From NCBI GenBank assembly GCA_003023725.1, contig PXYT01000001.1, positions 124,001 through 188,000 on the forward strand: a stretch of DNA of 64,000 nt, given 5' to 3'. The position numbers were made by a program, and so were the translations under genes. This document shows, piece by piece, positions 15,335-21,154 of this stretch (its first letter is position 1; each line of letters starts with the position of its first letter). The notes under the pieces are model-generated. The model was not told the origin of the DNA. It saw only the letters and a list, made by a program, of their open reading frames with translations, and made no database searches. Origin of the DNA: Sulfobacillus benefaciens. GTDB taxonomy: Bacteria; Bacillota; Sulfobacillia; Sulfobacillales; Sulfobacillaceae.

Positions 15335-16192
15335 TCATGGTTCCAGCACAACATTGTCGATTAGCCGGGCCTTTCCGATGCGTGCGGCCAACGCCAGAAT
15401 GGCTCGAGATGTGCCGAGTTCCTCCTCTAACGGGACCAAAGTGTTGGCATCGACCAAAGAAACGTACTCCGGCTCAATGCTGTGTTCCCTCAGAACATCT
15501 GCCACCTCTTCCACCAGCTTCTCGGCGTTTCGTTCACCGCCCTCAAACCGCTTTTGACCCGCCAACAACGCCTGGTAAAGGAAAGCCGCCCGGTCTTTTT
15601 CGACGGGAGTAAGGTACTGATTGCGCGACGACAAAGCCAATCCTGACGGTTCTCGAACGGTGGGGACTCCGACAATTTCCACCGGAAAGTTCAAATCTCT
15701 CGTCAGTTGCCTGATAATCGCCAATTGCTGTGCGTCCTTTTTTCCGAACAGCGCAACACTCGGCCGAACGACATTGAACAATTTGCACACCACGGTGGCC
15801 ACTCCGTCAAAATGCCCGGGGCGCCCCAATCCACACATCACGTTCGTCATGGAGGGCAAGGTAATTACCGTCCGACTGGGGCCCTGGGGGTACATCTCCG
15901 ACACCGAAGGAGCGAACACGGACAGGGGCCGGTATGATTCCAAGAGACGAAGATCGCGCGCCAAGTCACGCGGGTATTTTTCGAAATCTTCGTGGGGCCC
16001 AAATTGCAAGGGATTGACAAATATACTCACGATTACCTCCGGAGCCAATCTCTTTGCCTCTTCCACCAAGGCCAGATGTCCCTGATGCAAAGATCCCATA
16101 GTCGGCACCAGAGCTACATTCTGTCCCGGCAATAGCTGATCACGGTACGTCATCATGGCATCTAATGTTTCCAAGCACACAATACTGGACAA
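15335..16192 (-). CDS. panC: Pantothenate synthetase
   Basis: It joins pantoate and beta-alanine with ATP to make pantothenate, the coenzyme A precursor. The 285-residue protein has the nucleotidyl-transferase signature MGSLHQGHLALV (HxGH), FVNPLQFGPHEDFEKYPR, LFGKKDAQQL and SSRNQYL. No panB or panD is in the window. The gene lies 28 bases downstream of the disulfide oxidoreductase and may share its transcript. Confidence 0.96.
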   Translation of the reverse strand: MSSIVCLETLDAMMTYRDQLLPGQNVALVPTMGSLHQGHLALVEEAKRLAPEVIVSIFVNPLQFGPHEDFEKYPRDLARDLRLLESYRPLSVFAPSVSEMYPQGPSRTVITLPSMTNVMCGLGRPGHFDGVATVVCKLFNVVRPSVALFGKKDAQQLAIIRQLTRDLNFPVEIVGVPTVREPSGLALSSRNQYLTPVEKDRAAFLYQALLAGQKRFEGGERNAEKLVEEVADVLREHSIEPEYVSLVDANTLVPLEEELGTSRAILALAARIGKARLIDNVVLEP

Positions 16193-16220: not shown

Positions 16221-16889
16221 TTAGAGTTCGAATAACGCCTTCAACCGACGAATCAGGTGATCTTCACTCAAGGCCCCCTCAAAACTTTCTTTCCGTCCCG
16301 CGTCCTGGATGGTCACGATAGTTTTAGGCACGGCGTAAACGTCTTCAGCCTCGGCCATTTCCGCAAATGCGCCAGCTTCAATGGACTCGCCTCGTATCCT
16401 CGCAGGATTGGCCAACGCCATCTGGTGCACCAGGCGGACCGCCCGGGGACAATGCGGTCACGTTGGTGTCACGAAGACGCGTAATAAAACATCATGCTCC
16501 AAATTACGAATGTAATTAACGGTTTTTTCGCTCAGCCGGGACCGTCCTGTCGAGACATCAAGAATATCCTCAATGAGCACGGCAAATTCATATCCAGACG
16601 GCATGCCCAGAATCCGGATGCCAGTATCGTCTTCATTCTTATCGCGCAAAAGCAATGCCGGAACCTGTTCCACACCATATAACGCCGCCAGCAGCCGGTT
16701 TTTGTAAAAGTCATAGACTTCCAGATGCAGTAAATCCGGCATCAAACCGACGACCTCATTCAAAATACCCTGAGTATGGACGCTCCATTCCTGGCCCGGA
16801 TCGTAAAAAAGAACCAGATGCACGGGAAACTTCAAATCCCGAAACATTTCCGACAGAGTTTGGCGGTCCCGCTCATTTAAGAATCCCAA
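16221..16889 (-). CDS. Glutaredoxin-like disulfide oxidoreductase, candidate selenoprotein
   Basis: Read straight through one TGA codon (16458-16460), this frame gives 222 residues with the two-domain layout of protein-disulfide-oxidoreductase (PDO) proteins. The N-terminal half (LVLFYDPGQEW, then VEQVPALLL) lacks a CxxC. The C-terminal half has the thioredoxin-type active site, but its first cysteine is the TGA: VFVTPT-(UGA)-PHCPRAV, i.e. U144 and C147. Coding continues to a normal end with the cis-Pro segment VPKTIV. A 7-bp hairpin with a GUC loop begins 11 nt after the UGA. If Sec is not inserted this is a point-mutated pseudogene. No selA, selB, selC or selD is in the window. Confidence 0.75.
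16430..16446 (-). promoter_or_regulatory. Candidate bacterial SECIS hairpin
   Basis: On the minus strand CCGGGCG-GUC-CGCCUGG forms seven pairs (one G-U). The apical loop begins 18 nt after the UGA at 16458-16460 and follows a stem-closing G, giving GGU at the tip. The E. coli fdhF element also has GGU at the tip about 18 nt after UGA. The fold was worked out by hand. Confidence 0.55.
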
Positions 16890-17075
16890 GACTGTTCCCC
16901 CTCGTGCTCAATAGCCGACGCACCACTTAAGGAGAACTCCTCCAATCCAAGCTTGTTGCCAGATGGTTCTGCGTTCAGCCTTTCCGTGCTTACCGATTAT
17001 TTATGATATTACACCTTAAATGGTCACCCGACGACCGGTGCATCCTACATTATACTCCGCTCCGACTTCTTTCAT

Positions 17076-18701
17076 TTAGTTTACCGACTCTTCGGGATTC
17101 GATTGGGCGTCCCGTTCCCCTGTTGGAGACGGCAAGCCGTCTGGCCATGCCAACCGCCGCCTCGCAGCCATGAACTCCCGGCCCAGAGCATCTAGTCGCT
17201 CCTCTATCACGCCTCGGTCGTCCTCCCAGAAAAAGATATCCAGGAGTCTCTTTTCCAAACTTCCCCGGCGTTCCAGGTGTCTTAGGATCACATCGAGTTC
17301 ACCTACCACATGGCGGAACAGGTCAATTTTCTCATGCAGAAGATGCAAAATATTTTCTTCAATCGTGTCCATGGTGAACAAGTTATAAATTTCTACAGGA
17401 TGTTTTTGTCCCATGCGGTGCACACGACCGATACGCTGTTCAATGCGCATCGGGTTCCACGGCAAATCGAAATTGATCAATTGATGGCAAAATTGCAGGT
17501 TTAATCCCTGACCCCCCGCTTCGGTAGACACGAGAACGTGACCGTTTTCCCGAAACCGTGCAATATTCCGGTCGCGATCGCGACGACTTAATCCCCCATG
17601 AAAGACTTCCGCCGTAACACCCGCTTGAAGCAAGGCGTTGACAATGGCTGCCTGTGTCGCCCGGTACTCCGTAAAAATCAAAATATGGCCGGGCCGAGCG
17701 CGAATCAGATCTATCACGGCCCGAATTTTGGATGTGTTGTTGATCGATCGAGCCAGCGTTATCAGTTCTTCTTGCAACGCTCCCAGCCAATCAGAACTTT
17801 CCAAAGTTGGAATGAGGGCTTGGGGAGAGGAACACAACTCCCGCTGCAAGGTAATGAGGGGAAGAACTGTTTGACTGCCCTTTAGCCGATAACGATATTC
17901 CTCTTTAAGAGCATGTGCCATGATGTCGTACAATTGCCGTTCTTGAGGACTGAGTACAATAGGCAATAAGCTCACTTCACGGGGGGGCAAGTCCAGTCCG
18001 ACTTCTTGCCTCCGGTTTCGGACCATGACTTTGGCCAGCAGTTTTTTTAATGCCCGAGCATTTTTTGGTGTCCGCTTGTCCAAGATAAATTGCCGGTAAA
18101 AACGCAAGTAGTTACTGAACAAACCAGGCTTGACAAGATTGACGAGAGTATACAACTCGTTCAGTTCGTTTTCCATGGGGGTCGCAGTTAACAGCACCAA
18201 AAAACGTGACTCAAGTCCCTCCACCAAACGGTAGTTCAACGTCCCGGTATGTTTTAAATGGTGAGCTTCGTCGACAATCACTAAATCCCAAGGCACGTAC
18301 TGTAAGTGCTGGTACAGAGGGAATTTTTTGGCCTTGTCAATAGAAAAGATCCACAACCACCCGCTGTCGTGAACGCTATCACAGGCTAACCATCCAAACT
18401 TGTCCCGAAGTTCCTGAGCCCATTGGGAAACCAACCCAGCAGGAACCAGAATCAGAACTTGATTCACGCGCCCTTGTGCCTTCAGCTCCGCAATAATGAG
18501 TCCCGCTTCAATCGTTTTGCCCAGTCCGACTTCATCCGCAAGAATGGCTCGTCCTTCAAGACGGTTTACCACCGTGAGGACACTGTCGATTTGATAGCGG
18601 TGCAACTTGAGTCCTGCATCGAGAAAAGGCTCGAGATCCCGCCAGCATTTCAGATGACTGGTTAAGTGATGCAAAGACGGTTCCTGGAACGGCTTTCTCA
18701 T
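17076..18701 (-). CDS. SNF2-family DNA-dependent ATPase
   Basis: A 541-residue two-lobe SF2 ATPase of the SNF2/RapA kind. Walker A is DEVGLGKT near residue 58, Walker B DEAHH near 142, motif III LTATPMEN, and the C-lobe has STEAGGQGLNLQ and QRIGRVHRMGQ (motifs V and VI). It lacks long N-terminal extensions, so it is close to a bare motor domain. Its start overlaps the stop of the ligase-D polymerase gene by four bases, which puts it in the same transcript as the NHEJ genes. A role at DNA ends or in transcription recycling is inference. Confidence 0.92.
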   Translation of the reverse strand: MRKPFQEPSLHHLTSHLKCWRDLEPFLDAGLKLHRYQIDSVLTVVNRLEGRAILADEVGLGKTIEAGLIIAELKAQGRVNQVLILVPAGLVSQWAQELRDKFGWLACDSVHDSGWLWIFSIDKAKKFPLYQHLQYVPWDLVIVDEAHHLKHTGTLNYRLVEGLESRFLVLLTATPMENELNELYTLVNLVKPGLFSNYLRFYRQFILDKRTPKNARALKKLLAKVMVRNRRQEVGLDLPPREVSLLPIVLSPQERQLYDIMAHALKEEYRYRLKGSQTVLPLITLQRELCSSPQALIPTLESSDWLGALQEELITLARSINNTSKIRAVIDLIRARPGHILIFTEYRATQAAIVNALLQAGVTAEVFHGGLSRRDRDRNIARFRENGHVLVSTEAGGQGLNLQFCHQLINFDLPWNPMRIEQRIGRVHRMGQKHPVEIYNLFTMDTIEENILHLLHEKIDLFRHVVGELDVILRHLERRGSLEKRLLDIFFWEDDRGVIEERLDALGREFMAARRRLAWPDGLPSPTGERDAQSNPEESVN

Positions 18702-19588
18702 AACCCGGGCCTCCTGATGAATAACTTTTCTTGCGATAACCCACGTTCGCTCAAATGCCGGGTGAGGGGTATTCCGGGATGATGGACTGCGAATTGATCA
18801 CCGTCGTGCTTAATCCGGTCAATGACCCGGTTCATTGTCCACCATGCAGGCTCCTGCCCGATTTCGTCCAAAGTGATGGGACAGGACACAGAAGCCCAAG
18901 GAACCGCTCGTACGGAATACACGCCAGCCATAGTCCTCTGGCCAGAGTTCTGCAAATAATCGATGTAGACCCGATTCCCTCTGTTCTTCTTGAGACGTTC
19001 AAGTGTCAGCAAATGAGGGTAGGTTGCCTGAGCAATCCGGGCAATCAGCTGACAGGCCGCAGTCACTTTATAGTCGGGTTCAGGCTCGATTTTAATGTAA
19101 ATATGCATCCCGTGCCGTCCCGAAGTTTTTAACACATAGGGAATGTCGAGCATATCCAGAAGCCGGCCCATAATGCCGGTGGCCTCGGCCACTTTCTCCC
19201 ACCTCACCTGGTGGGGATCCAAATCGAAAATGGCCCAGTCGTGCATGTGGGGATCCCGGGCCGGTCCCAAAGGCACATGCCATTCAATCACACCCATGGC
19301 AACCCACTGCAACAAACCCCGAACAGAATTGACTTGTATGCGGGATTCTTCGTTCGTGGCCTGTATTTCTTTGGTGTGTTTTTGATAAAACGCCATGCCT
19401 TCTATGCCATGAGGCCACCGTTTGATCGTCAACATGCGGTTTTGGTAATGGGGCAACAGCACCGGGCTCACGGTCGCATAGTAGTCCATTAATTGCCTTT
19501 TGGTTATTCCGGGTTGCGGAAACAAAACGCGGTCCGGATTTGAAACCCGGATATTAAGTGTGGTACTGCCACTGGCGAATTCGACCAT
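18698..19588 (-). CDS. Ligase D polymerase/primase domain protein
   Basis: A stand-alone LigD PolDom of the archaeo-eukaryotic primase family, which fills gaps with (ribo)nucleotides during end joining. The 296-residue protein has LFPQPGITKRQLMDYY, YQKH, the metal-binding FDLDP, KTSGRHGMHIYI and VYIDYLQN motifs. It overlaps the ligase gene by 35 bases and the SNF2 gene by four. In Mycobacterium and Pseudomonas this domain is fused to the ligase; here it is separate, as in several thermophiles. Confidence 0.95.
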   Translation of the reverse strand: MVEFASGSTTLNIRVSNPDRVLFPQPGITKRQLMDYYATVSPVLLPHYQNRMLTIKRWPHGIEGMAFYQKHTKEIQATNEESRIQVNSVRGLLQWVAMGVIEWHVPLGPARDPHMHDWAIFDLDPHQVRWEKVAEATGIMGRLLDMLDIPYVLKTSGRHGMHIYIKIEPEPDYKVTAACQLIARIAQATYPHLLTLERLKKNRGNRVYIDYLQNSGQRTMAGVYSVRAVPWASVSCPITLDEIGQEPAWWTMNRVIDRIKHDGDQFAVHHPGIPLTRHLSERGLSQEKLFIRRPGL

Positions 19589-20390
19589 GTCGCATCTTTC
19601 CCCTTGTTGTTAGCTCGCGATATTCCACTTCAACCACGAGAGGGCGGTTGAGCCGCCATATTGGCCTGGAACCTTTTCCCTTTTCCGTCATCACATCTTG
19701 TGCTTCTGCTGACCACCCGGGAGGTGCGGGTAACGTGCCTATAACTGCCCGTGAATCATTACCCGGGGACATCCGCCAGAGCCACTGGCCTTCCGAACTT
19801 TGCGAAATGGTGAAAACTTTTGTCCACTGTCTGGTCATTACTAAAAATTTCTTCCAATACCCTACCCTTTTCCCCGGCAAATAGGGACTCCCGAGATGCT
19901 TGGCCATGACCCCTTCTAGGCCACGATCCCTCACTGATTGCCACAATGCCGTTCCTTTCTGGATAATCCCGTCCGCCACCACAATTTTCCCCTGGGTGGT
20001 TACCACCCGGTGCATCCTTTCGAGACGGGTGGCCAGTGGCTTGGCACAAAGCCATTCACCGTCGGCATACAGGCAATCAAAGACCACCACACGGTGAGGG
20101 AGAGGGGCTCGCTTTTGCAAGGCGTAATAAGAAGGCGCTCCATTCTCCCAGGCAATCAATTCTCCGTCTAGAATCACGGGAACATCAAACAGTTGGGCAA
20201 GATCGGCCAAATCGGGAAAGGGTTGCAATAAATCTCTACCGGAACGGGAAAAAACTTGAAGACGATCCGTCCAGTGGATTTGACACCGGTACCCGTCCCA
20301 TTTGATCTCGTAGCGCCACTCGCTATCGTCGAATGGATGGGGTACGGTTATACCCAGCATGGGTAAGATAAATTTTCCGGGATCGTTCAT
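19554..20390 (-). CDS. ligD: ATP-dependent DNA ligase of the NHEJ system
   Basis: A 278-residue ATP-dependent ligase core. The nucleotidyl-transferase motif I with the adenylated lysine is EIKWDGYR, followed by VFSRSGRDL, LDGELIAW, GLEGVMAKHLGSPYLPGKR and the WKK motif V. A short OB-fold domain forms the C-terminus, ending RPLVVEVEYRELT. It overlaps ku by four bases and the polymerase gene by 35, so the ku-ligase-polymerase set is one unit. Confidence 0.95.
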   Translation of the reverse strand: MNDPGKFILPMLGITVPHPFDDSEWRYEIKWDGYRCQIHWTDRLQVFSRSGRDLLQPFPDLADLAQLFDVPVILDGELIAWENGAPSYYALQKRAPLPHRVVVFDCLYADGEWLCAKPLATRLERMHRVVTTQGKIVVADGIIQKGTALWQSVRDRGLEGVMAKHLGSPYLPGKRVGYWKKFLVMTRQWTKVFTISQSSEGQWLWRMSPGNDSRAVIGTLPAPPGWSAEAQDVMTEKGKGSRPIWRLNRPLVVEVEYRELTTRGKMRHGRIRQWQYHT

Positions 20391-21154
20391 CCTAATCGTG
20401 TCTCGTGGGAAACCGATTCCCGCAATTGTTCCATGAGCGAGATTACTTCCTCAGTTGCTTGGTAGTTTTGAGTGTTCCGGGCCGTCGGCATCAAAGCCTG
20501 AATACGTTCCAACAACTGCCGCTTGGCTAAATTAGGGTAACGTTCCGGCACGAATGGTTCCTGCATGTGTTTCACCAGGATTCTGGCCATATCTTGTTCC
20601 TTATCGGACACGGGGACGGAAATCTCGCCGAAACGCGTGCCTTCTTGCCGTAAACTTTCGGGATAATGGAGGGTATGCATCATCAGAGTTGAGCCCTCAT
20701 AGGCCCGCACTACGGCCAAGGACAATTTCGAGCGCAAAGTCAGTTCCGCTAAAGCCACAAGATTAGTCTGTTCCATGGTATCCCGCAGCAGACGGTATCC
20801 CTTATGACCTCCAGCCATTGGCTTCAGCCAATAAGCCTGCTTGTAATATACCGGATCAATGGCATTCAAAAGGTGAAAACTGATAATACTTACGGTATGA
20901 TCATGGGCAGGTGTCTCTTGCGGTTCGTCATCCAACACCACATAGCGCCCATTAGGGACCGGAGCTCCCCGAACCAACTGACCAGCTTCGACTTCAGTAC
21001 GGCAAACCGGGCAGTACTTCTGGTATTGGATTCGTGATCCACAAATTTTGTGAAGCCAGTGGACCTCGACTTTTTCATCGTCCAGAGCTTTATAGACTTG
21101 GATAGGAATGGACACCAGTCCAAAGCCAATGACTCCTTTGTACAGACTTCTCAT
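20387..21154 (-). CDS. ku: DNA-end-binding protein Ku
   Basis: The bacterial Ku homodimer threads onto DNA double-strand ends and recruits ligase D. The 255-residue length fits. Typical signatures are IGFGLVSIPIQVYKA at the N-terminus, a CGSRIQYQKYCPVCRTEVE zinc-like segment, IDPVYYKQAYWLKP, and a C-terminal tail. First gene of the repair set; in Bacillus the homologous genes act in the germinating spore, which suits this spore-former. Confidence 0.96.
   Translation of the reverse strand: MRSLYKGVIGFGLVSIPIQVYKALDDEKVEVHWLHKICGSRIQYQKYCPVCRTEVEAGQLVRGAPVPNGRYVVLDDEPQETPAHDHTVSIISFHLLNAIDPVYYKQAYWLKPMAGGHKGYRLLRDTMEQTNLVALAELTLRSKLSLAVVRAYEGSTLMMHTLHYPESLRQEGTRFGEISVPVSDKEQDMARILVKHMQEPFVPERYPNLAKRQLLERIQALMPTARNTQNYQATEEVISLMEQLRESVSHETRLG

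Follow-up and report, generated by a model that had tools for sequence, protein, structure and literature searches.

A probable selenoprotein of the protein disulfide oxidoreductase family in Sulfobacillus, with a SECIS-type hairpin conserved by compensatory changes

A minus-strand gene in the window (the whole 64-kb stretch of Sulfobacillus benefaciens DNA analysed here) very probably encodes a selenoprotein of the protein disulfide oxidoreductase (PDO) / AhpF N-terminal domain family, in which selenocysteine (Sec) would be inserted as residue 144 at an in-frame UGA. This reading is based on sequence comparison. The features of the locus are the following:

15335..16192 (-): panC (pantothenate synthetase), directly downstream after a gap of 28 nt; only a neighbour, although found next to the gene across the family
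16221..16889 (-): gene of Sec-PDO, a protein disulfide oxidoreductase with thioredoxin folds in tandem (TIGR02187); 222 codons with TGA read as Sec, from a TTG start to a TAA stop
16430..16446 (-): hairpin of the bacterial SECIS type, with a stem of 7 bp (CCGGGCG/CGCCUGG), loop GUC at 16437-16439 and 18 nt from UGA to loop; maintained among UGA genes through compensatory changes and lost from Cys homologues
16449..16451 (-): codon of the resolving cysteine, Cys147 of U-P-H-C; column C147 invariant
16458..16460 (-): UGA, the predicted codon of selenocysteine 144, with which the UxxC active site begins, from the UGA or Cys codons of aligned homologues and the sel genes
16897..16902 (-): AGGGGG, a putative ribosome-binding site 7 nt 5' of the TTG start, from the sequence and the conserved start position
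17076..18701 (-): SNF2-type helicase on the upstream side; only a neighbour, in a conserved position beside the gene

As claimed in an earlier note made from the sequence alone, the 222-codon frame (minus strand 16889-16221) is uninterrupted apart from a single TGA at 16460-16458, and the second cysteine of the motif is retained (codon 16451-16449). The translation around the UGA is RVFVTPT-U-PHCPRAVRL. The first residue corresponds to TTG codon 16889-16887, and this start appears sound since orthologues begin at the identical point, with ATG, GTG or TTG. Terminated at the UGA, the product would be 143 residues long and devoid of the catalytic motif; alignment of homologues showed that the 78 codons 3' of the UGA remain conserved. 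Standard annotation would split the gene in two at the UGA, which the Sec reading corrects. The gene order helicase - PDO - panC - spmA is conserved and is uninformative on the redox partner. Inspection of the neighbours revealed no redox partner gene adjoining Sec-PDO and, likewise, no consistent redox partner emerged from the neighbours of the four PDO paralogues of this genome. Beside the SNF2 helicase, at 18698-21154, lies a split end-joining set in which Ku, ATP-ligase and a LigD-type polymerase are separate overlapping genes (named from sequence by eye).

At the protein level, Sec-PDO passed the NCBIfam model TIGR02187 PDO_seleno_TRX with 197.8 bits (cut-off 185), and it reached 18.6 bits on glutaredoxin PF00462, under the Pfam cut-off of 22.9. 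A profile built from 28 relatives matched Pyrococcus PDO 1a8l at 5.6e-62, and also AhpF. The predicted structure (pLDDT 95.5) displayed two tandem thioredoxin folds, with TM 0.93 against 1a8l and 0.86 against the AhpF N-terminal domain. With the archaeal/Aquifex PDOs (PDB 1a8l, 1j08, 2ayt, 2hls) it shares this tandem fold and an equally placed C-terminal active site; those proteins carry Cys instead of Sec and an extra CxxC in the N-domain. No CxxC occurs in the N-terminal half of Sec-PDO, where FYDPGQEW stands in its place; assignment to the classical two-site PDOs of archaeal type, which have CxxC in both halves, was rejected. Because of this missing motif, Sec-PDO has one active site, as has the AhpF N-terminal domain (PDB 5h29, 1zyn, 4o5q), which it resembles in its fold and in the location of that site in the second unit. 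It differs from this domain in being free-standing, unfused to a flavoprotein, and in carrying Sec.

In 2006, Zhang and Gladyshev listed homologues with Sec for the AhpF N-terminal domain in Carboxydothermus and Symbiobacterium (PMC1794560), and later reviews map them to TIGR02187 (PMC9312934, PMC13188914). This family ('homolog of AhpF N-terminal domain', Grx-like domain selenoprotein) includes Carboxydothermus ABB15282 and a Symbiobacterium thermophilum member (PMC1794560, PMC9312934, PMC13188914). Given the name PDO_seleno_TRX and these 2006 members, the family was already known to contain selenoproteins. Sec-PDO shares with it the family assignment, the UxxC motif and the position of Sec, and is distinguished by loss of the N-domain CxxC and by the occurrence of several Sec copies per genome.

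A search for PDO genes covered 41 genomes, 33 of them from the order of Sulfobacillus. Four PDO-type genes lie in the window genome itself (G000), all with a single TGA that falls in the same column; the three further paralogues are L002/L044, L003 and L004, on contigs C90, C65 and C68. At least one UGA copy was recorded in 31/33 genomes of the order, with up to six Sec-PDO copies per genome. The Sec form is thus common, not odd, in this acidophile order, and the suggestion that a UxxC PDO would be unusual in the lineage has to be abandoned, Sec members having moreover been published in 2006 (PMC1794560). UGA members also occurred outside the order, in the phylum sample. In another family of the same class (L145, L148, L149 and L150, from G095, G134, G222 and G048), 3-5 PDO matches per genome were found, several with TGA, and with a SECIS sequence identical to that of the window.

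After removal of duplicates, the collected homologues amounted to 97 members, 75 with UGA and 22 with Cys, the latter number being a lower bound since distant Cys-type relatives with unusual motifs escaped the motif filter. The alignment check proposed in the earlier note gave a clear outcome: the first active-site position was occupied by Sec or Cys, and nothing else, in all 97. On the maximum-likelihood tree, the Sec/Cys label changed 11 times, at least 10 of these changes being forced by well-supported branches. The two genomes of the order lacking a UGA copy (G010 and G019, from one genus) displayed Cys in every PDO copy. SelA was present in 29/31 genomes with UGA copies and in 0/2 Cys-only genomes (Fisher p = 0.011): the SelA search returned nothing in G010 and a best score of 24.4 bits in G019, versus more than 400 for complete SelA genes. 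SelA was not found in two UGA-bearing draft genomes, G023 and G027, possibly owing to assembly gaps. The Cys copies of the SelA-less genus (L055, L056, L105, L107 and L136, from G010 and G019) are spread over separate clades, an apparent concerted Sec-to-Cys replacement in this genus.

The window genome (4.56 Mb, 155 contigs) was searched for selA, selB, selC and selD, as the earlier note had advised, and the complete set was found. SelA matched its profile with 482 bits, SelB scored 358 bits (cut-off 242), tRNA-Sec (SelC) 68.9 bits with anticodon TCA (ARAGORN), and SelD 358 bits, its own frame displaying a TGA at SG-U-GCK. UGA also occurs at classical sites in two formate dehydrogenases (FdhA; L156 on C81 and L157 on C46), with U in NRT-U-HAPSV, and at the peroxidatic Cys position of two peroxiredoxins (L164 on C92 and L167 on C77), as DFTPV-U and AFTPG-U; for this reason the genome is considered to use Sec in standard selenoproteins, this list being a lower bound. 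The two peroxiredoxins are PrxU-like and PrxQ/Bcp-like. Sec formate dehydrogenases were reported from Sulfobacillus (PMC4378227) and PrxU from S. thermotolerans (PMC7409299). Hairpins comparable to that of Sec-PDO stand 3' of the UGA in SelD and FdhA. The one in SelD, with a 7-bp stem and a 3-nt loop starting with G, has a near-identical geometry, and the one following the UGA of L156/L157 resembles the fdhF SECIS.

Bacterial SECIS elements are hairpins located directly after the UGA, with G as first loop nucleotide and the loop about 16-37 nt away. The Sec-PDO hairpin falls within these limits (18 nt, loop GUC). Taken singly, the sequence was unremarkable: folding of the UGA region, which had been proposed as a check, gave z = -0.13 and -0.23 against dinucleotide shuffles, without significance, and the minimum-energy fold of the 46 or 56 nt segment displayed a different pairing from the hairpin. 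An Rfam scan of the 64-kb window gave no match at gathering scores. The earlier hairpin proposal stands for its position and its 18-nt spacing, but not for the stability of the single sequence, which was no better than that of shuffles.

A clear relationship was observed between UGA and pairing when homologues were compared. On average, 5.84 of six core pairs were formed in the 75 UGA genes versus 3.91 in the 22 Cys genes, and all six were formed in 65/75 and 1/22, respectively. Synonymous recoding led to an expectation of 4.14 +/- 0.11 pairs in the UGA set against the 5.84 observed (z about 16, a value inflated by relatedness), and of 3.63 +/- 0.19 against 3.91 in the Cys set (z 1.5). Sliding the partner strand by 1-3 bases destroyed the pairing. 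When relatedness was removed by means of independent Sec/Cys contrasts on the tree (n=10), the complete hairpin went with Sec in about 7 (7.3) of the 10 and none was discordant (median p 0.016). Changes on both sides were recorded in 5/6 core pairs, and the loop was GUN in 75/75 UGA genes, GU at its start being invariant. As judged from these comparisons, the hairpin is under selection where the gene has UGA but not where it has Cys; the comparison is decisive here, the window sequence alone being insufficient.

This conservation extends to the protein. Counted from the UGA, codons +5 (window 16445-16443) and +9 (16433-16431) lie opposite each other in the stem. Among UGA genes they consist almost exclusively of complementary pairs: CAG/CTG (31 cases), CGG/CTG (29), CAT/ATG (8) and GAG/CTC (3). 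At these two residues of the protein, the RNA therefore fixes L as the partner of Q, R or E, and M as that of H. The rule is violated in Cys genes, where H is combined with L or I, R with A, and Q with Q.

A decaying Cys-type PDO, in which TGT or TGC was turned into TGA by nonsense mutation or sequencing error, would be one base away from the present codon, and two Cys orthologues of identical protein sequence (L034 and L039) do exist in the same genus. Yet the same UGA is found in orthologues from independent assemblies, which excludes a sequencing error, and 75 distinct genes belonging to several paralogue clades carry it; the 78 codons past it are conserved and the hairpin is under selection. 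Decay or error, extremely improbable on these grounds, was rejected for the UGA conservation and the selected hairpin. Genome-wide use of UGA as a sense codon (e.g. Trp or Gly) would open the frame equally well, but TGA ends 9/16 correctly assigned neighbouring genes, the aligned column never displayed Trp or Gly, and the genome has a complete Sec system; with TGA acting as an ordinary stop in this genome, such an alternative code was rejected as practically negligible. Some termination is expected at the UGA of any Sec codon, and to that extent the UGA might be a true stop after a functional 143-residue N-terminal thioredoxin fold, the remainder being separate or silent. We consider this very improbable: it is the downstream domain that carries the catalytic motif and most invariant columns, the N-domain is deprived of CxxC and there is no evident independent start for the C-terminal part. 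The Sec/Cys column, the sel genes and the conserved SECIS all point to a PDO-type protein with Sec as its first active-site residue, as the earlier note had proposed.

In the preferred reading, Sec insertion at the UGA, the ribosome would reach this codon and the downstream hairpin would recruit SelB with Sec-tRNA-Sec; Sec144 would be inserted and 78 more codons translated up to the TAA. The product would consist of two fused thioredoxin folds with the active site U-P-H-C in the second only, the CxxC of the first having been lost. Thioredoxin reductase or a similar flavoprotein would reduce the Sec-Cys pair, which in turn might pass electrons to peroxiredoxins or protein disulfides, forming a fast relay. 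One thioredoxin reductase match over the model cut-off was recorded in the window genome (393 bits, C108). Both electron donor and acceptor are putative, assigned by family only. A genuine Sec protein could instead oxidize or isomerize protein disulfides, as archaeal PDO has been proposed to do, and not relay electrons reductively to peroxiredoxins. This has a real but lesser chance of being right: the top structural match is the Pyrococcus PDO (TM 0.93), but the active site that two-site PDOs have in their N-domain is missing here, which resembles the state of AhpF-N, and reductive roles are the rule among Sec thiol oxidoreductases.

Two of the four PDO copies of the window genome scored far under the TIGR02187 cut-off of 185 (95.1 and 66.7 bits). 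They represent two divergent clades, L003-like (SPT-U-TRC-PHVV) and L004-like (TPS-U-PKC-AQAV), with scores of 66.7-95.1 bits; L003 (C65) and L004 (C68) may stand for selenoprotein subfamilies that have yet to be described. The literature searched, which was covered partially, contained no report of a Sec PDO from Sulfobacillus. The same partial search yielded no description of the multiplied Sec-PDO copies in the order or of the two divergent clades, so their novelty is unproven. It seems reasonably probable that the order of Sulfobacillus expanded Sec-PDO into several paralogue clades, two divergent ones being perhaps outside published selenoprotein catalogues, and that the SECIS stem dictates the +5/+9 residues. 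If this expansion is real, it would mean that this lineage of aerobic acidophiles has a disulfide relay unusually rich in Sec. The order further provides a natural experiment, with at least 10 Sec/Cys swaps, SECIS decay upon Sec loss and two related SelA-less genomes that are all-Cys, and its swaps allow the cost and benefit of Sec to be tested in a disulfide oxidoreductase of aerobic acidophiles.

Among the PDO relatives, CxxS forms were also recorded, in which CPHS or CAHS replaces the active site (L086, L087, L089, L094 and L097). Their genomes either possess Sec forms as well or have lost Sec.
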